In this document: in pieces, positions 22,468 through 30,861 of the stretch
Layout of the letters: each line of letters begins with the position of its first letter
Numbering within the stretch: position 1 is the stretch's first letter
Assembly: GCF_000522985.1 (NCBI RefSeq)
Contig: NZ_CP007128.1
Coordinates: 4,882,220 to 4,946,219, forward strand
DNA: 64,000 nt
Reading direction: 5' to 3'
DNA from: Gemmatirosa kalamazoonensis
GTDB taxonomy: Bacteria > Gemmatimonadota > Gemmatimonadetes > Gemmatimonadales > Gemmatimonadaceae
Translations under genes and position numbers: made by a program
Notes under the pieces: generated by a model
What the model saw: the letters and a program-made list of their open reading frames with translations, nothing else
What the model was told of the DNA's origin: nothing
Databases searched by the model: none

Positions 22468-23220
22468 TCATGCGGCGCGGCGTCGCCGGGCCACGACGAG
22501 CAGGAGCGCGCCGAGGACGAGCAGCGGGAGCGACCCCGGCTCGGCCGCGAGATCGACGCCGTCGGACGGCGGCGTCGTCGCGGGCACCGGGTCGCCGGGG
22601 ACGGCGACCGCGGCGCCGTCGGCATCACCGATCGAGTCGCCGATCGCACCGTCGGCGGACTGCGCCGGCGCCACGACGATCACCGGGCCGGCAGGCCCGC
22701 CGGCGCCGCCTGGCGGCGACGCGCCGCCGATCGCCGGCGCGCCCCCGCCGGTGGTCGATGGCGGCTCGAGCGACGGCGGCACGACGCCGGCGCCGCCCGC
22801 GGACTGCGGATCGGCCGCGGGCGGGCCGGGCGCCGCGGGGGCGTCGGGATCCCAGGGGTCCGGCGGCGCGTTCCCGGCGGGCGGACTCCCCGCCTCGGGC
22901 GGCAGCAGCCGGCCCCCCAACGCCGCCTGGATCGCGTTCGTCGCGCCGCCGCGATCGACGACGACCAATGCGACCGTTCCGACGAGCAGTCCCCCGAGCA
23001 GCGCGCCGAGCGGCAGTCCGGCGCCGATCGTCGCGCCGTCGGCGCCGTCGCACGAGCGGGCCGCGCGGACGGAGCGGGCGGCGCTGTCGAGCATCGCCGG
23101 GGCCCTCGCCGGCTGGGAGTCCGCGGCGGTCGATCGGCGGGGCGCGCACTGGGCGCCTGCAGTCGCCGCCGCGGCGGCGCTCGCTGCGATGCAGGCCACG
23201 AACGGCAGCGGATGCCTCAT
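22468..23220 (-). CDS. PEP-CTERM-like secreted protein, Pro/Gly-rich
   Basis: A 250-residue protein with a signal peptide (MRHPLPFVACIAASAAAAATAGAQ). A membrane-like Gly-rich segment (GLPLGALLGGLLVGTVALVVV) is followed by a long Pro/Gly/Ala linker. The C-terminus, EPGSLPLLVLGALLLVVARRRRAA, is a PEP-CTERM-type sorting signal: EP motif, hydrophobic helix, arginine cluster. Such tails are processed by an exosortase in bacteria that make exopolysaccharide; no exosortase is visible in this window. I use the ATG at 23220; an upstream in-frame start at 23304 would add residues before the signal peptide. Confidence 0.65.
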   Translation of the reverse strand: MRHPLPFVACIAASAAAAATAGAQCAPRRSTAADSQPARAPAMLDSAARSVRAARSCDGADGATIGAGLPLGALLGGLLVGTVALVVVDRGGATNAIQAALGGRLLPPEAGSPPAGNAPPDPWDPDAPAAPGPPAADPQSAGGAGVVPPSLEPPSTTGGGAPAIGGASPPGGAGGPAGPVIVVAPAQSADGAIGDSIGDADGAAVAVPGDPVPATTPPSDGVDLAAEPGSLPLLVLGALLLVVARRRRAA

Positions 23221-23273
23221 CGGACCTCTTCGACGCGGGCGGAGGGGGGAAGACGGGCCCCGCGTCCTGCTGT

Positions 23274-23296
23274 TATAATTGCCGAGTCTGGCAATT
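23274..23296. promoter_or_regulatory. TATAAT box with overlapping inverted repeat
   Basis: Between the two divergent PEP-CTERM-type genes lies a perfect TATAAT (23274-23279, plus strand) overlapping the inverted repeat AATTGCC-GAGTCT-GGCAATT (23277-23296, 7-bp arms). No good -35 is seen 17 bases upstream. The layout suggests a promoter covered by an operator, about 160 bases upstream of the gene at 23457. Confidence 0.5.
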
Positions 23297-23456
23297 GGCG
23301 CCATAGCGAGCCCGTGCGTGTCGGCCGGATTACGAGACCTTCACGCACGGCTCATGAATTGCTGGTGTCGTTCTCGTCCGTGGTGTCGGCGACGGTCCGA
23401 CGTTGGGCCGCGTTCGCCGACCCGACTCCCGTGACCTGCTCCCTCACGAGACGCCC

Positions 23457-24341
23457 ATGCCGCGCCTGGCCGAAGTCGCTGCCGCCTGCCTACTGGCCGC
23501 AGCCGCCCTCCCATTCCCGCTGGCCGCGCAGACCACCCCGGTCTATCCGGGCGACCCGAACTGGATCGCCGACGTGCTCCAGAACGCGAGCGCGCAGATC
23601 ACCGGCACCCAGCCGCGGTCGGGGAACGGCTCGCTGCAGCTGCACACGACGGGCGACCTGCAGGACTGGGCGTACTTCGAGAACACGGCCGGCAACCCGA
23701 ACACGGCGAGCTTCGGCCTGCTGACCGACATCTCGCAGCTCGCGTTCGACTGGTTCCGCGATCCGCTCGGCGTGGCGGGGGGCGACGTGCCGTGGCTCGC
23801 CCAGACGCCGATCCTGCGCCTCTTCGTCCGCGAGAACGACCCGGCCGGCGCGCCGCACTTCAGCCAGCTCGTCTGGGAGCGCTACTACACGAACAGCGCG
23901 CCGGCGCCGTTGAACCAGTGGCAGAGCGAGGACCTGCTCTCGCAGAATTTCTGGCGGGTGACGCTCGAGGGACCGAACGGCACGCTGCGGTCGTACACGC
24001 GCGCGGGATGCGCCGGCGGGCCGCTCGACCCGGCGTTCCCGCTGCTCACGCTGACGCCGGTCGCGTGGACGGGACCGAACGGCTGCTACGATCCGACGAA
24101 CGCGTTCGTGTGGGGGATCGGCGTCGGCGTCGGGAGCAACTGGCCGCACGAGTTCCTCGGCTTCGCCGACAACGTGCAGCTCTCGTTCACGACCGGGACG
24201 CACATCGGCGCGAACTTCGAGCTGCGGCCCTCCTCGACGGTGCCGGAGCCGGCGACGGTCGGCCTCCTGTTCGTCGGGCTGCTCGCGCTCGGCGCGGGAC
24301 GGCGCGCGGCGGCGAAGCGCAACGCCGCGTCGGTCACGTAA
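23457..24341 (+). CDS. PEP-CTERM sorting domain protein
   Basis: A 294-residue secreted protein. Residues 1-24 form a signal peptide (AACLLAAAALPFPLAAQ). The body is rich in aromatic and Asn/Gly residues, suggesting an all-beta domain (ISQLAFDWFRD, LRLFVREND, FWGIGVGVG-like strands). The C-terminus is a textbook PEP-CTERM: VPEPATVGLLFVGLLALGAG then RRAAAKR. Such proteins are anchored or released by exosortase together with exopolysaccharide. It precedes the polysaccharide operon (gap 17 bases), supporting a link with a surface matrix. Confidence 0.85.
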   Translation: MPRLAEVAAACLLAAAALPFPLAAQTTPVYPGDPNWIADVLQNASAQITGTQPRSGNGSLQLHTTGDLQDWAYFENTAGNPNTASFGLLTDISQLAFDWFRDPLGVAGGDVPWLAQTPILRLFVRENDPAGAPHFSQLVWERYYTNSAPAPLNQWQSEDLLSQNFWRVTLEGPNGTLRSYTRAGCAGGPLDPAFPLLTLTPVAWTGPNGCYDPTNAFVWGIGVGVGSNWPHEFLGFADNVQLSFTTGTHIGANFELRPSSTVPEPATVGLLFVGLLALGAGRRAAAKRNAASVT

Positions 24342-24358
24342 GCGGCACGCCCCGTCCG

Positions 24359-25510
24359 ATGCGACACCGTGTCTGCGTCGTCGTCGGAACGCGGCCCGAG
24401 GCGATCAAGCTCGCGCCGGTCATTCGCGCGCTGCACGACCGGCGACACGCGGTGGAGTGCGTGGTGCTCGCGACGTCGCAGCACCGCGAGATGTTGCGGC
24501 AGGCGCTGGATGCGTTCGGCCTGCGCGCCGACGTCGACCTGGATCTCATGGTGGACGGGCAGGATCACCGCCAGTTCACGTCGCGCGCGATGCGGGCGCT
24601 GCACGAGAGCTTCGAGTCGCTGCAGCCGGCGGCGGTGATGGTCCAGGGCGACACGTCGACCGTCGCCGCGGCGGCGCTCATCGCGCGCGCGTGCGGGATC
24701 CTGCTCGTGCACGTGGAGGCGGGGCTGCGCTCGGGCAGTCTGAGCGACCCGTATCCGGAGGAGCTGAACCGGCGCATCGCGACGTGGGCCGCGGACCTGC
24801 ACTTCGCGCCGACGGAGCGCGCGCGGTGTCAGCTGCTGGCCGAGGGCATCGATCCGGAGAGCGTGATCGTCACCGGCAACACGGTGGTCGACGCGCTCGG
24901 GAGCTTCCCGGCGGACGGACCGTTAGGCAACGCGCGACTCGACGCGCTGCCGTGGGACACGCAGCCGGTGCTGCTCGCGACGGTGCACCGCCGCGAGAAC
25001 TATGGCGCGCGCCTCGGGCAGATCTGCGCCGCGCTCCGGACGATCGTCGAGCGGCACCCGGCGGCGCACGTCGTGATGCCGGTGCACCGCAACCCGCAGG
25101 TGCGGCAGCGCGTGCACGACGCGCTCGACGGCGTGGCGCGCGTCCATCTCACCGAGCCCCTGTCGTACCCGCTGCTGCTGCGCGTGCTGCGCCGCTGCCG
25201 ACTCGTGCTGTCGGACTCCGGCGGGCTGCAGGAGGAGGTGCCGTCGTTCCACAAGCCGATCCTCATCCTGCGCGACCGCACCGAGCGCCCCGAGGTGCTC
25301 GACGCGGGATTCGGCCGCCTCGTCGGCGCATCGACGGAGACGATCGTGCGCGAGACGTCGCGCCTGCTGACCGACGCGCGCCTCTACGCGGAGATGTGCA
25401 GCGGCCGCAACCCGTTCGGCGATGGACAGGCGGCGGGACGCATCGCCGACGCACTCATCGCGCGGCTCGGCGCGCGGCGCGTCGCGATAGCGGCGTCGCG
25501 TCCGGCGTGA
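24359..25510 (+). CDS. wecB: UDP-N-acetylglucosamine 2-epimerase
   Basis: Non-hydrolysing epimerase that converts UDP-GlcNAc to UDP-ManNAc, a precursor for surface polysaccharides. The 383-residue protein has the N-terminal VVVGTRPEAIKLAPVI, the VQGDTSTVAAAALIA motif, HVEAGLRSG, PEELNRRI, VTGNTVVDAL, HRRENYG and SDSGGLQEEVPSF segments that mark this family. Length is normal (about 375). It is the first gene of an operon in which every following gene overlaps its predecessor by four bases, and provides the likely sugar donor for the GT2 synthase at 27239. Confidence 0.95.
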   Translation: MRHRVCVVVGTRPEAIKLAPVIRALHDRRHAVECVVLATSQHREMLRQALDAFGLRADVDLDLMVDGQDHRQFTSRAMRALHESFESLQPAAVMVQGDTSTVAAAALIARACGILLVHVEAGLRSGSLSDPYPEELNRRIATWAADLHFAPTERARCQLLAEGIDPESVIVTGNTVVDALGSFPADGPLGNARLDALPWDTQPVLLATVHRRENYGARLGQICAALRTIVERHPAAHVVMPVHRNPQVRQRVHDALDGVARVHLTEPLSYPLLLRVLRRCRLVLSDSGGLQEEVPSFHKPILILRDRTERPEVLDAGFGRLVGASTETIVRETSRLLTDARLYAEMCSGRNPFGDGQAAGRIADALIARLGARRVAIAASRPA

Positions 25511-26325
25511 GCATGGGCGCGCGCGCGTGGTCGACCGCCCAGGCGGTGGGCACGCTCGTGCTCGCACTCGACGCGCGCCCCGCGGCCGCGCAGGGGACGT
25601 CTGCGGCGCCGCCGGCCGCCGCGGCACAGCACGCGCTCGAGGTGGGCGCGTCGCACCAGTGGGTGTCGAACGACTACGGCGACTGGGGCAGCGTGTACGC
25701 GCGCTACCAACGCCAGACGACGCTCGACGTGTGGTACGCGGACGCGCTCGCGGAGTACGCGTTCGGCGACCGCGGGCTGTTCGGCGGGGTCGCGTACCGG
25801 CGGGAGCTGAGCGCGCGAACGTTCGCGAGCGTCGGCGCGGGCGTGGGCAGCGGCGCGTTCTTCCTGCCCCGCGCGCGCGGCGACGCATCGGGCGGCGTGC
25901 GCTGGGGTCCGAGCCGGAGGCTCGTCTCGACGTTAGGCGCGACGTACCTGCGCTACCGCGGGCCGTACCGCGACGTCGCGCTGACACTGGCGACGGCGGC
26001 GTACTTCCGCGGCGCCGTGGCGGAGGTGGGGCTGCGCGCCAACCGCTCCACGCCGGGCGACGTGAGCTCGCAGCGCGCGTTCGCGGCGGTCACGATCGCC
26101 GCGGCGCCGGGCCAGACGGTGATCGTGCGCGGCGACGCGGGTACGGAAGGCTATCTGCTGCTCGGGCCGAGCACCGCGCAGGTCGCGTTCGCGAGCCGTG
26201 GCGCGACGGTGGCGTGGCGTGCACGCGTCGCGCCTCGGTGGACGCTCATCGCCTCCACCGAGGCGTACAAGAATCCGTTCTACTCGCGCGTCGGCGTGTC
26301 GGCCGGGGTGTCGCGGTCGTGGTGA
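25507..26325 (+). CDS. YaiO-like outer-membrane beta-barrel protein
   Basis: A 272-residue protein with a signal peptide ending ARPAAAQ. The mature part consists of repeated amphipathic strands (LEVGASHQWVSNDYGDWGSVYARYQRQ, GLFGGVAYRRELSARTFASVGAGVG, TEAYKNPFYSRVGVSAGVSRSW) and ends in an aromatic residue, as outer-membrane barrels do. The GDW...Y..Y and late YKNPFYSR features match the YaiO family found with polysaccharide glycosyltransferases. I use the GTG at 25507, which overlaps the epimerase stop (GTGA) like the other junctions here; an ATG at 25513 is possible. Likely role: polymer export or anchoring at the outer membrane. Confidence 0.8.
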   Translation: MSMGARAWSTAQAVGTLVLALDARPAAAQGTSAAPPAAAAQHALEVGASHQWVSNDYGDWGSVYARYQRQTTLDVWYADALAEYAFGDRGLFGGVAYRRELSARTFASVGAGVGSGAFFLPRARGDASGGVRWGPSRRLVSTLGATYLRYRGPYRDVALTLATAAYFRGAVAEVGLRANRSTPGDVSSQRAFAAVTIAAAPGQTVIVRGDAGTEGYLLLGPSTAQVAFASRGATVAWRARVAPRWTLIASTEAYKNPFYSRVGVSAGVSRSW

Positions 26326-27242
26326 CGAGCGTCGTTCCCGAGGGGCGCCCGTCGCGGGTGCCGTCGCGCGCGCCGCTGTGGCGCCGCATCGTCAGCGCCG
26401 TGTCGCGGCGCGACGCGGTCTACGAGCTGCGGCGGCGCGGCGTGCGGGGGGGCGTCATCCGGCAGCACCGCGCCATGGCGACGCTCTCCGCGACGCCGAT
26501 GCTGCTCGTGAACATGCTCGCCATCCCACTCGCGCTCACCGTGGGGGTGCTGCTCGCGCTGCCGTGGATCACCGACCGGTGGGGCGACCTGCTGCGCGCG
26601 TTAGGCACCCCGCTCGGCTTCGGGAACGTGGTGCTCGCGCGCGCGGTGTCCATCGGCAACCTGTACTCGCTCGCCATCCCGTACGTGAACGTGCAGGCGC
26701 CGTGGCCGGGGCGCGTGGCGCTCGTCGTCGGGGCGGTGGGGTCGCTGCTCGCGCTCGCGGCGACGTTCGCATTGTCGCCGCGCCAGCTGCCGCTGCGCTA
26801 CGCGATTCGCGCGGTGGTCGCGCTGCAGCTCGTGTCGATCGCGTACTTCGCGCTCGCGCGGCCGCCGTTCGCGTACCGGCTTCCGGACTACCTCGTCGGC
26901 TTCCTCAGCACGGGCGCCGCGGTGCTCGTGCTGCTGCCGCTGCTGCTCGGGCTGACGTTCTTCCTGTTCCACATGGCGCTGTGGCGCAAGCTGCTGCTCG
27001 CGGCGCTGCTCGTGGCGCACATGGCGGTGCTGTTCCCGCTGCAGGCGCTGGTGCACGCGTACCTCGTGACGCACGCGACGCTGCTCGTGCTGCCGCCGCT
27101 GTTCCTCGTGTTCGGGCTGCTCGTGGAGACCGCGGTGTTCGTCGCGTTCTACGGCTGGGGGATGAGCTGGGCCGGTCACACGGCAGCCGAGGACGCGGTG
27201 TCGCCGCCACGGCGCCGGCGATCGGGAGCGCGGCACCCGTGA
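26322..27242 (+). CDS. Polytopic membrane protein of the polysaccharide operon
   Basis: A 306-residue protein starting at a GTG that overlaps the YaiO stop by four bases. The first 45 residues are basic and cytoplasmic; then come six to seven hydrophobic helices (for example LLVNMLAIPLALTVGVLLALPWI, VALVVGAVGSLLALAATFAL, LVLLPLLLGLTFFLFHMALW, LVLPPLFLVFGLLVETAVFVAFYGW). No motif known to me is present. Sitting between a barrel and a processive GT2 it may be a synthase subunit or polymer channel component; this is inference from position. Confidence 0.7.
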   Translation: MTSVVPEGRPSRVPSRAPLWRRIVSAVSRRDAVYELRRRGVRGGVIRQHRAMATLSATPMLLVNMLAIPLALTVGVLLALPWITDRWGDLLRALGTPLGFGNVVLARAVSIGNLYSLAIPYVNVQAPWPGRVALVVGAVGSLLALAATFALSPRQLPLRYAIRAVVALQLVSIAYFALARPPFAYRLPDYLVGFLSTGAAVLVLLPLLLGLTFFLFHMALWRKLLLAALLVAHMAVLFPLQALVHAYLVTHATLLVLPPLFLVFGLLVETAVFVAFYGWGMSWAGHTAAEDAVSPPRRRRSGARHP

Positions 27243-28555
27243 CGGTCGTCATCATCCTCCTCGTGGCCGTAGTGGCCGTGCTCGCGCTGTACACGGTGCG
27301 CCACTACGTGTTCACGCTGAACCGGCTGTTAGGCACCCACCGCCAGCCGTACGTCGACGTGACGGTGGCGCAGTGGCCGCGGGTGGCGGTGTTCGTGCCC
27401 GCGCACAACGAGGAGCACGTCATCCGCGAGTCGCTCGAGGCGCTGCTCGCGTCGGAGTATCCGGCGGACCGCCTCGAGATCATCCCGGTGAACGACCGCT
27501 CCACCGACCGCACGCGCGAGATCGTGGACGACTACGCGGCGCGCTTCCCCGACCGGGTGCGCCCGTTCCATCGCACGGAGGGGCTGGCCGGAAAGGCCGC
27601 CGCGCTGCGCGACGCGTATCCGCTGTCGGACGCCGAGGTGCACCTCGTCTTCGACGCGGACTACATCCCGGGGCCGCGCGTGATCCAGCAGCTCACGGCG
27701 CCGTTCTTCGATCCCGAGGTGGGCGCCGTGATGGGGCGCGTGGTGCCGCTCAACATCGGCCGCTCGCTCATCACGCGGCTGCTCGACCTCGAGCGGTCGG
27801 GCGGCTACCAGGTGGACCAGCAGGCGCGCATGAACCTCCGCCTCGTACCGCAGTACGGCGGCACGGTCGGCGGCGTGCGGCGCGTCGCGCTCGAGCAGGT
27901 GGGCGGGTGGACGGTGGACTCGCTGGCCGAGGACACCGACGTCACGTACCGGCTGCTGCTGCACGGCTGGGAGGTCGTCTACCAGAACCGCTCCGAGTGC
28001 TACGAGGAGGTGCCGGAGAACTGGGCGACGCGCATCCGGCAGATCCGGCGGTGGGCGACGGGGCACAACCAGGCGCTGCGCCGCTACGCGGGCCCGCTGC
28101 TGCGCCGCGGTCGGCTGCTCGACCTGCGGCAGATCGCCGACGGCTCGCTGCTGCTGGGCGTGTACGTCGTGCCGGTGCTGCTGCTCGTCGGCTGGTCGCT
28201 CGCGGTCGCGGTGTTCTTCGCCGGACGGCTCCCGGCGCACGGGCTGCTCGCGCTGCTCGCGATCTCGTCGTTCAGCACGGTGGGCAACTTCGCGGCGTTC
28301 TTCGAGGTGGCGGTCGCGGTGCGGCTCGACGGGTCGCAGAACCGCGTGCGCCTGCTGCCGTTCCTGCTGCTCGGCTTCCTGGTGAGCGCGGTCGCGGTGA
28401 TCCGCGCGTCGATGCCCGGCTGGCCCCGGTGGCCGGGACGGCGGCGCACGGTCACGTGGCACAAGACGGAGCGGCACCGCAACACGAACGGCGGGAACGG
28501 GGCCGGCACGTACGTGCTGATGTCCGCGCTGGAGTACCAGCGCTCCGAGCGATGA
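27239..28555 (+). CDS. Processive glycosyltransferase, GT2 family
   Basis: A 438-residue inner-membrane polysaccharide synthase of the NodC/BcsA/PgaC type. It has one N-terminal membrane helix (residues 3-20), then the catalytic domain with FVPAHNEEHVIRESLEALL, the DxD site Asp139-Ala-Asp141, the acceptor-site Glu231-Asp232 (SLAEDTDVTYRL) and the Q-x-x-R-W motif Gln268-Trp272 (QIRRW) that marks processive enzymes. Three or four helices follow (LLLGVYVVPVLLLVGWSLAVAVFFAG onward). It overlaps both neighbours by four bases. With the epimerase upstream, a ManNAc- or GlcNAc-type polymer is a reasonable guess. Confidence 0.92.
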   Translation: MTVVIILLVAVVAVLALYTVRHYVFTLNRLLGTHRQPYVDVTVAQWPRVAVFVPAHNEEHVIRESLEALLASEYPADRLEIIPVNDRSTDRTREIVDDYAARFPDRVRPFHRTEGLAGKAAALRDAYPLSDAEVHLVFDADYIPGPRVIQQLTAPFFDPEVGAVMGRVVPLNIGRSLITRLLDLERSGGYQVDQQARMNLRLVPQYGGTVGGVRRVALEQVGGWTVDSLAEDTDVTYRLLLHGWEVVYQNRSECYEEVPENWATRIRQIRRWATGHNQALRRYAGPLLRRGRLLDLRQIADGSLLLGVYVVPVLLLVGWSLAVAVFFAGRLPAHGLLALLAISSFSTVGNFAAFFEVAVAVRLDGSQNRVRLLPFLLLGFLVSAVAVIRASMPGWPRWPGRRRTVTWHKTERHRNTNGGNGAGTYVLMSALEYQRSER

Positions 28556-29670
28556 CGGGGCTGCTTCCCTTCCTCGTGCTCCTGCTCGGGACGTGCGTGT
28601 GGGCGCTGCTGCCGTTCGTGCCCGCGGTGCGCGAGCTGCTGCGCCCGACCGACGCCGTGCCGTTAGGCATGGTGGGGCGCGACTCGGGCGACATCACGTA
28701 CTTCGCGACCGGCTTCCGCGCGTTCCTGGAGCGGCACCCGATCCTCTCCTCGGGCAGCGACCCGGCGAACGTGACGGGCACGCTGGCCGACGGCGCGCCG
28801 TACGCGCGCGTCGCGACGCCGGGGCTGTGGACGCAGCTCCCGCGCGGCGAGCACGAGGAGATCACCGCCGTCGTCGTGCTCGACGGCCGCATGGCGGTAC
28901 CGCCCAGCCAGGTGTTCGCGGCCGAGGTCTACGCACGACAGCCGATGCTCGGCGGCGTGGGGACGACGTATCGCGCGGTGCTGTGCGACGACGTGTGCCA
29001 CCTGCTGTCGCGCAGCGTGGTGCTGCGGTGGATCCACGCGCGGCGGGCGCTGTGCGTGGGACGCGGGAGCACGCTGTACAACCGCGCGTCGTCGGACGAT
29101 CGGATCACGCTCTCGAGCGACGTGCGGTTCGACCGACTCGGCGCGCCGATCATCGAGGTGGCCGGCGACGGCTCGCGGCCGTCACCGCCGACGCCGACAC
29201 GTACGCCGTACGAGCCGCCGTCGACGATGACGCGCGTGCTCGGCGAGGGCGCGGCGGTGCCGTTCTACCGCGTCGAGGGCGACTTCGTGCTGCCGGAGGC
29301 GACCGTGCTGCGCGGCAACGTGGTGGTGCGGGGCACGGCGGTGGTGCAGCGCGGCGCGCGGCTGGAGGGGAGCCTCAAGGCGCACCGCGACGTGCGCGTC
29401 GAGGCCGGGGGCGAGGTGACGGACGCGCTCGTGAGCCGCCGCGACGTCACGGTCGAGGAGTGGGGCGTGGTCGGCGGGCCGCTCGTCGCGGAGCGCGACT
29501 GCGCGCTCGGGCGCTGGTCGCGCGTGGGCGACGTCGGATCGCCGACGACGATCGCCTGCCGCCGCCTCACGCTGTCCGCGGGGTGCCGCGTGCACGGGCG
29601 CGTGTCGACGCGCGGCGGCGGCACGACCGGCGTGCGACGGCCGGCCGCTACGGCGCCGGCGTCCCGTTAG
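28552..29670 (+). CDS. Membrane-anchored bactofilin-like (polymer-forming) protein
   Basis: A 372-residue protein with an N-terminal membrane helix (LLPFLVLLLGTCVWALLPFV). The middle region (about 40-220) is unknown. Residues about 250-350 form short repeats typical of the bactofilin beta-helix (VLRGNVVVRGTAVVQRG, ARLEGSLKAHRDVRVEAGG, EVTDALVSRRDVTVEEWG, VVGGPLVAERD). Bactofilins polymerise and position envelope and polysaccharide enzymes. It starts at ATG within the GT2 stop (ATGA). Its TAG stop lies in a GTTAGGC word that also encodes Pro-Asn of the converging beta-lactamase gene; the two genes overlap by 23 bases. Confidence 0.78.
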   Translation: MTGLLPFLVLLLGTCVWALLPFVPAVRELLRPTDAVPLGMVGRDSGDITYFATGFRAFLERHPILSSGSDPANVTGTLADGAPYARVATPGLWTQLPRGEHEEITAVVVLDGRMAVPPSQVFAAEVYARQPMLGGVGTTYRAVLCDDVCHLLSRSVVLRWIHARRALCVGRGSTLYNRASSDDRITLSSDVRFDRLGAPIIEVAGDGSRPSPPTPTRTPYEPPSTMTRVLGEGAAVPFYRVEGDFVLPEATVLRGNVVVRGTAVVQRGARLEGSLKAHRDVRVEAGGEVTDALVSRRDVTVEEWGVVGGPLVAERDCALGRWSRVGDVGSPTTIACRRLTLSAGCRVHGRVSTRGGGTTGVRRPAATAPASR

Positions 29671-30634
29671 GCGCGCGCCGCGGCCACGCGTCGGCGACCG
29701 CCTTGCCGAGCCGGGCGAGCACCGCGTTGCCCTCGGCGTCGATGGCGTAGCTCCGGTCGACGTTCTCCTTCGTGAGGCCGCAGACGACGACGCGCGACTG
29801 CAGATAGAACAGCGCGCAGTCGGCGCGCGACTGATCGACGTCGCCGGTCTTGTGCGCGACGCGCACGCCGTCGACCCACCGCACGAGCTTCGTCTCGTCC
29901 TGATTGTGGGCGAGGAAGTCGAGCATCGTGGAGTCCGCGGCGGGGCTCACCGCCTTGCCGTCGGCCAGCAGCGCGAACAGCTTCGCCATCTCGTTCGGCG
30001 TCGTGACGCCGAGGCCGTACTTGACGGAGCTGTCCATCGCCACGCTCGCCGCGCGGATGAAGGACTTGGAGTGCACCTTCGTGTGCATCAGCCCGAGCGA
30101 CTCCATCTTGTCCCACGTGCGGCGAATGACGATGCGGTCGAGCAGCAGGTTCGTCGCCGTGTTGTCGCTGATCGTCGTCATCAGCCACGCCGCGTCGCGC
30201 ACCGAGATCTCGATCCCCGGGTGCATGAACTGCAGCGTGCCGGAGCCGGGCACCTGGTCGATCTTCAGCACGGTGAGCGGGTCGTCGAGCGAGAGCATCT
30301 TCTTCTCGACGAGGTCGAACACGGTGACGAGGATCGACACCTTGATGAGGCTCGCCGTGGGGAACGTCTCGTCGCCACGGCGCTCGAGCCGCTCGCCGGT
30401 GTCGAGGTTCCACACCGTGTAGCCGAGGATCCCGCGATGCGACTCGGCGAGGGAGTCGAGCGTGCGGTGGAGGCGTGCCGTGTCGGCGTGAGTGAAGCGG
30501 CCGGGACTCGGGACTCGGGACTCGGGACTCGAAGTCTGCGCGTGCGCGCATCCCGTCGTCGCGAGCGTGAGCGCAAGCGCGCAGCCAGCGAGCAGCAACC
30601 CGAGTCCCGAGTCCCGCGTCCCGAGTCCCGTCAT
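29648..30634 (-). CDS. Class A beta-lactamase-like serine hydrolase, lipoprotein
   Basis: A 328-residue protein with the serine beta-lactamase/PBP motifs: SxxK at Ser95-Leu-Ile-Lys98, SDN in TTISDNTATNLL and KTG in AHKTGDVDQSR. It probably either hydrolyses beta-lactams or is a related peptidase in the periplasm. The N-terminus has a lipobox LLAGC (Cys18). Unusually, the signal-peptide region is flanked by the two arms of a (GGGACTC)n inverted repeat: one arm encodes MTGLGTRDSGLG, the other [10 protein letters not shown]. The ATG at 30634 overlaps the upstream gene's TGA by one base. Its end overlaps the bactofilin gene. Confidence 0.85.
   Translation of the reverse strand: MTGLGTRDSGLGLLLAGCALALTLATTGCAHAQTSSPESRVPSPGRFTHADTARLHRTLDSLAESHRGILGYTVWNLDTGERLERRGDETFPTASLIKVSILVTVFDLVEKKMLSLDDPLTVLKIDQVPGSGTLQFMHPGIEISVRDAAWLMTTISDNTATNLLLDRIVIRRTWDKMESLGLMHTKVHSKSFIRAASVAMDSSVKYGLGVTTPNEMAKLFALLADGKAVSPAADSTMLDFLAHNQDETKLVRWVDGVRVAHKTGDVDQSRADCALFYLQSRVVVCGLTKENVDRSYAIDAEGNAVLARLGKAVADAWPRRAPNGTPAP
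30502..30630. repeat. (GGGACTC)n inverted array, locus 2, inside a signal-peptide region
   Basis: About four GGGACTC units (30502-30531) face about four GAGTCCC units (30599-30630) with a 67-base loop. Both arms are translated in the beta-lactamase-like gene, before and after the hydrophobic part of its signal peptide. The mRNA should fold into a hairpin right after the start codon. Confidence 0.88.
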
Positions 30635-30861
30635 CAATCCTCGGCGTCCGCGAAGTCGTCCGACTTGCGCGCCTCGACGAGCTCGCGGTCGTTCGAGGTC
30701 GGGTCGTACATCGCGAGCAGCTTGATCGTCTCGCCCGGGTATGCGTCGAACTCCTTCCCCGTCCCCTTGTAGACCTTGATCTCGTGGCCGTCCTCGAAGC
30801 GCATGATGACGAGCGGGTAGTCGCTGTTGACGTATTGCTTCCGAACGCGCTTGGCGGGCAT
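30634..30861 (-). CDS. Hypothetical protein, 75 residues
   Basis: A small soluble protein (MPAKRVRKQYVNSDYPLVIM) with a basic N-terminus, a central beta-like stretch (VIMRFEDGHEIKVYKGTGKEFDAYPGETIKLLAMYDP) and an acidic end (SDDFADAED). Function unknown. Its stop overlaps the start of the beta-lactamase-like gene (TGATG), indicating one transcript. Confidence 0.65.
   Translation of the reverse strand: MPAKRVRKQYVNSDYPLVIMRFEDGHEIKVYKGTGKEFDAYPGETIKLLAMYDPTSNDRELVEARKSDDFADAED

Follow-up and report, generated by a model that had tools for sequence, protein, structure and literature searches.

What does a tightly packed run of genes in Gemmatirosa kalamazoonensis build, and what is a gene resembling a cytoskeletal bactofilin doing beside a polysaccharide synthase? 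We examined a 64,000-nucleotide stretch of contig NZ_CP007128.1 (positions 4,882,220 to 4,946,219, hereafter the window), of which an earlier note, made from the letters alone, had proposed that five genes joined by 4-nt overlaps form one exopolysaccharide unit, with a PEP-CTERM gene just upstream. Our reading, to which we give a probability of about 0.6, is that the operon encodes a synthase-dependent exopolysaccharide system, probably of the N-acetylmannosamine/N-acetylglucosamine (ManNAc/GlcNAc) type, in which a cytosolic bactofilin-like protein is a standing partner of the synthase. The genes, with the evidence behind each assignment, are as follows:

23457-24341, + strand: PEP-CTERM surface protein gene (PF07589 at 22.2 bits, linkage, alignment with homologues)
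24359-25510, + strand, ATG at 24359: WecB-type non-hydrolysing UDP-GlcNAc 2-epimerase gene (TIGR00236 equivalog)
25507-26325, + strand: YaiO-type outer-membrane beta barrel gene (PF19413, TIGR04390)
26322-27242, + strand: gene for an inner-membrane protein with six transmembrane helices (6-TM protein) and no family match (AlphaFold model, co-distribution with the GT2)
27239-28555, + strand: processive GT2 polysaccharide synthase gene (PF13641, catalytic motifs)
28552-29670, + strand: membrane-anchored bactofilin-like protein gene (AlphaFold model, 6ria superposition, adjacency to the GT2)

The epimerase/YaiO, YaiO/6-TM, 6-TM/GT2 and GT2/bactofilin-like junctions read GTGA, GTGA, GTGA and ATGA, and both these letters and the gene coordinates of the earlier note held on re-reading. 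The YaiO gene has an alternative ATG at 25513, two codons inside the called start, and the 6-TM gene an in-frame GTG slightly upstream; since these starts are uncertain by a few codons, two of the four overlaps are likely rather than certain. Single overlaps of this size are frequent in GC-rich genomes and unremarkable alone; the noteworthy feature is that those at the 6-TM/GT2 and GT2/bactofilin junctions recur in relatives. A gap of 17 nt separates the PEP-CTERM gene from the epimerase start, which makes a six-gene transcript plausible, and the PEP-CTERM gene is part of the operon unit.

The strongest evidence that these genes act together comes from their co-occurrence. Across a sample of 249 Gemmatimonadota genomes, the bactofilin-like protein was found in 16 (~6%), and two separate searches, one with the 6-TM profile and one with the GT2 profile (E <= 1e-100), recovered those 16 genomes and no others. 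Carriers with long enough contigs show the order epimerase, YaiO, 6-TM, GT2, bactofilin-like, a few of them lacking YaiO, and same-order relatives share 33-67% identity with the five genes of the window. Because the same genes recur in the same order, the operon is not a product of chance; chance or local assembly is ruled out by the conserved order and the co-occurrence. The earlier note had staked its reading on gene order being kept among relatives, and it is kept. A contig whose record is labelled Candidatus Kuenenia (L048) carries a GT2 67% identical to that of the window and matches L024 in length and genes; it appears to be the same contig as one in a Gemmatimonadota genome, and its record is probably a mislabelled or mixed metagenome-assembled genome (MAG).

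The unit extends well beyond this phylum. We searched the flanks of the 80 best loci from the GT2 alignment with profiles, and found related loci in Acidobacteriota, Eisenbacteria, Krumholzibacteriia, a Bacteroidota MAG and Betaproteobacteria (Duganella, Pseudoduganella, Ralstonia, Chromobacterium, Aquitalea, Herbaspirillum, Collimonas, Undibacterium and Polaromonas), as well as in MAGs labelled Gamma-, Alpha- and Deltaproteobacteria. All five genes were present in most flanks, with the order of blocks reshuffled; Pseudoduganella and Duganella loci (L069-L072) show the compact five-gene form. Within this GT2 subfamily, to which the counts apply, the GT2 and bactofilin-like genes were adjacent in every locus that had both (79/79), and so were the YaiO and 6-TM genes (65/65). 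In 69 of the 80 loci, a WecB-type epimerase gene lay inside the module or close to it. Since the two adjacencies are constant while the position of the epimerase and the block order vary, the unit is best described as two fixed blocks, synthase with bactofilin and barrel with 6-TM protein, plus a mobile epimerase. The bactofilin-like partner was not found apart from the synthase in any locus surveyed across phyla.

As these loci had been picked by GT2 similarity, we made the reverse test with the 6-TM profile in 274 genomes of Ralstonia's class. It returned four carriers (1.5%), three of them new, and all three new carriers have GT2, bactofilin-like and YaiO genes adjacent. Pairwise distances among the five families correlate at r 0.84-0.95, to which shared descent contributes. 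A plasmid search with the 6-TM protein gave no match. The claim that the five genes form one unit is thus sustained by conservation both within Gemmatimonadota and in other phyla.

What, then, is the partner of the synthase? Its AlphaFold model (mean predicted local distance difference test score, pLDDT, 92.4) has a transmembrane helix at 4-30, a beta domain at about 107-203 and a right-handed beta helix at about 243-342. The predicted helix superposes on the Thermus bactofilin 6ria at 1.8 A over 89 residues (Z 8.0), which we accept as a bactofilin fold; as a Z of 8 is middling, the call rests on the root-mean-square deviation, the coverage and the matches to PF04519, found at E<=0.01 in 49 of 55 aligned members. 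Other right-handed helices superpose at 2.5-4 A. A left-handed hexapeptide acetyltransferase identity was rejected, as such enzymes fit at ~11 A against 1.8 A for the bactofilin. Lysine and arginine average 0.01 before the transmembrane helix versus 2.5 after it (74 sequences), which by the positive-inside rule places the C-terminus and the beta domains in the cytoplasm. Like BacA, BacM, CcmA and Thermus Bac, the protein has a right-handed beta-helix domain of equal size; unlike them, it has a transmembrane anchor and a second beta domain, and is linked to a polysaccharide synthase instead of cell-wall enzymes. The description as a membrane-anchored bactofilin-like protein therefore stands for the fold, but this is not a standard bactofilin, given the extra domain, the anchor and a PF04519 score of 22.5 bits, below the Pfam gathering cut-off of 27.9.

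These departures also suit a different role within the same exopolysaccharide system, in which the protein forms no filament scaffold and instead, as a monomer or small oligomer, stabilises or regulates the synthase in the manner of PgaD or BcsB. A stoichiometric subunit would account for the strict linkage to the GT2, and in the model the end of the helix may be capped by additional long strands at the C-terminus (332-359). Against this stand the near full-length fold match to a filament-forming bactofilin and the recognition of most aligned members as Bactofilin, and we place such an accessory subunit a little short of even odds. The stronger proposal is that the exopolysaccharide synthase, widespread and undescribed, has a cytoskeletal protein of the bactofilin type as an obligate subunit in the cytosol, and that this subunit sets where in the cell the polymer is secreted; we hold it only tentatively, and doubt it somewhat more than we doubt the accessory role.

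Which sugar is polymerised? The epimerase passes the TIGR00236 (WecB) equivalog with 397 bits against a cut-off of 210, and its residues R12, K17, D98, E120, E134 and H210-R211-R212-E213 are invariant in relatives; from its sequence, it is predicted to make UDP-ManNAc. The GT2 (438 aa) matches PF13641 at 2.9e-32 and has the general hallmarks of a processive enzyme (D, DxD, ED, QxxRW) at D86, D139-A-D141, ED231-232 and QxxRW268-272, invariant in 79 sequences except for one E231D. Its best named family is PgaC/IcaA, at 123 bits, with the TIGR03937 equivalog cut-off of 422 not reached; in E. coli, the GT2 profile finds PgaC at 8.6e-38 (119.7 bits), YaiP at 2.8e-16 and NfrB at 11.6 bits. The matches to PgaC/IcaA (123-132 bits) and the weak one to NfrB would fit a poly-N-acetylglucosamine (PNAG)-like polymer, with the epimerase merely tuning precursor supply or serving another pathway. 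So would the putative deacetylases: the two blocks are 1-3 kb apart in many loci of beta- and gammaproteobacteria and acidobacteria, and in the examples the inserted gene encodes a protein of 636-671 aa that matches polysaccharide deacetylases weakly to moderately. Such genes are a pointer to an acetylated amino-sugar polymer. However, PNAG synthesis has no need of an epimerase, which accompanies the module in 69 of 80 loci, and the PgaC cut-off is missed; we consider a PNAG-like product unlikely and favour one containing ManNAc.

The second block comprises the putative export route. The barrel passes TIGR04390 (134.8 versus 32 bits) and PF19413 (8.7e-33; 114.2 versus 23.9 bits), is 272 aa long with a signal-peptide-like N-terminus, and has no tetratricopeptide repeat (TPR) match. 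Its neighbour, the 6-TM protein, shows the conserved motif RGxRGGxIxxHRAM at the N-terminus and has no Pfam or NCBIfam match, and no Pfam family was assigned to any of its 55 aligned members. We found no convincing fold match for its model (pLDDT 87.8), as Foldseek and VIA-align gave generic helical matches, none above Z 7.2. The protein represents a new family whose functional setting is clear. In some betaproteobacterial versions, a protein of ~330 aa without known family follows the bactofilin-like gene (L103:11317-12345, L081:11261-12259, L054:4000-4974).

How does the PEP-CTERM protein fit in? The earlier note had placed it just upstream, and it proves to be a linked operon partner in Gemmatimonadota. 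It scores 22.2 bits on PF07589 (cut-off 20.7) and has the marks of an exosortase substrate, namely a C-terminal PEP motif, a transmembrane segment, a basic tail and an exosortase in the genome; this single exosortase lies at 2.88 Mb, unlinked to the operon. Full-length homologues (34-50% identity, alignment A3) flank the operon on one side or the other in 12 of 16 Gemmatimonadota carriers and are confined to carrier genomes, with weak or partial relatives elsewhere. Along with the exosortase found in 12 of 16 carriers, this linkage would be expected if the genes glycosylated the PEP-CTERM protein or built a surface layer, rather than making a free exopolysaccharide. Yet no exosortase was found in three of the MAGs with a PEP-CTERM gene, no full-length homologue turned up in the carriers examined among Acidobacteriota, proteobacteria and Bacteroidota (six genomes), and a processive GT2 with a barrel suits polymer export. 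We therefore regard protein glycosylation or a surface layer as improbable, and retain polymer secretion as the probable function of the operon.

Does the operon belong to a system already described? In known synthase-dependent polysaccharide systems, the GT2 works with a small partner in the membrane, a modifying protein in the periplasm and a porin with TPRs; in this operon, a protein of cytoskeletal type takes the place of the usual membrane partner or stands beside it. The likeness to PgaABCD/IcaADBC lies in the GT2, whose best match is PgaC/IcaA although far below the PgaC equivalog cut-off, and in the putative deacetylase of some versions (compare PgaB). The operon differs in having no PgaD and no TPR porin PgaA, and in adding the epimerase, the 6-TM protein and the bactofilin-like partner. 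The E. coli yaiO-yaiX-yaiP-yaiS genes similarly place a YaiO barrel near a GT2 (YaiP) and a deacetylase-type gene, but lack an epimerase or 6-TM gene; YaiP is a weaker match than PgaC, and YaiX is annotated as an acetyltransferase. We rejected YaiX as a counterpart of the bactofilin-like protein, since its fragments are missed by the bactofilin-like profile and its intact copies carry that annotation. In functional terms, the operon resembles both Pga and NfrB/NfrA/WecB of E. coli. The latter is a precedent for UDP-ManNAc-dependent export, where NfrA/NfrB with WecB produce a putative ManNAc polymer that is the N4 phage receptor (PMC8669472, PMC8669469). The NfrA/NfrB/YbcH system with WecB (NGR glycan) shares with our operon a GT2 synthase, an outer-membrane barrel and a need for WecB-made UDP-ManNAc (PMC8669472, PMC8669469). 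Unlike the operon, NfrB has an MshEN cyclic di-GMP domain, NfrA has TPRs and 990 aa, and the Nfr operon is without wecB, a bactofilin-like gene or a 6-TM gene. The operon genes are not NfrB/NfrA members: no MshEN domain was found on the 438-aa GT2, the 272-aa barrel gave no TPR match, and NfrB reaches only 11.6 bits. A Rubrivivax exopolysaccharide locus was set aside as a prior description because its gene set differs. In the open-access literature, we found no description of YaiO with a bactofilin, of an epimerase with a polymer-forming cytoskeletal protein, or of the deacetylase variant, in agreement with the earlier note, which knew of no such system. As far as that literature goes, the operon is a new version of synthase-dependent exopolysaccharide secretion, and the bactofilin-like partner is its distinguishing part.

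Several observations weigh against our reading. The PF04519 score falls below its cut-off; the adjacency counts come from loci selected by GT2 similarity and are valid for that subfamily only; the epimerase was not seen in a few loci; and the enzymes that the GT2 most resembles, PgaC/IcaA, use UDP-GlcNAc, which leaves ManNAc as a candidate substrate. In addition, some Gemmatimonadota (L030, L031, L040, L073) have no YaiO gene in the operon, so that export may go through another barrel there. Where the operon is without YaiO, a second, divergent YaiO gene occurs near a GT2 in L030 (2215-3114), L031 (13862-14872) and L073 (8243-12886), with a PMT-type gene between the two in L073. A simple co-loss of YaiO and the PEP-CTERM protein, apparent at first, was weakened by L030 and L031, in which another PEP-CTERM protein occupies the corresponding upstream position and the divergent YaiO gene lies near another GT2. 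Overall, the observation is real, and the evidence for it is stronger than the first reading could tell.

As for the surroundings of the operon, a sigma-70 promoter scan gave no match, such a scan being uninformative for Gemmatimonadota. A perfect inverted repeat, AATTGCC-N6-GGCAATT, at 23277-23296 of the window precedes the PEP-CTERM gene and lies beside a TATAAT. The 7.5-Mb genome has a single copy of it, and the loci checked show no conserved copy ahead of the operon; it could be an operator. The divergent gene at 22468-23304 (- strand) has no family match, and its C-terminus, AEPGSLPLLVLGALLLVVARRRRAA, resembles a PEP-CTERM-type tail. Directly downstream of the operon, a convergent gene of the class A beta-lactamase family occupies 29667-30637 (- strand).

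How might the parts work together? Judging by its family and active-site residues, the epimerase would convert UDP-GlcNAc to UDP-ManNAc. The GT2, given its processive motifs, would polymerise an N-acetylamino sugar, with ManNAc or ManNAc/GlcNAc the likeliest choice, and extrude the chain across the inner membrane. The 6-TM protein, co-inherited as a block with YaiO, may be the inner-membrane subunit that passes the chain to YaiO, its presumed exit through the outer membrane. Tethered by one transmembrane helix, the bactofilin-like protein would keep its beta domains on the cytoplasmic face of the membrane, where the active site of the GT2 also lies, and act as a standing partner of the synthase, a pairing shown by conservation, or possibly as its scaffold. 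In Gemmatimonadota, the PEP-CTERM protein would be exported, and probably either retains the polymer at the cell surface or carries it as a decoration, while in many beta- and gammaproteobacterial and acidobacterial versions the putative deacetylase probably removes acetyl groups. If the bactofilin-like protein forms filaments, it would constitute a built-in positioning device for polymer secretion, and if this is true, the question of how bacteria select the site of matrix secretion becomes testable in culturable Duganella, Pseudoduganella or Polaromonas.

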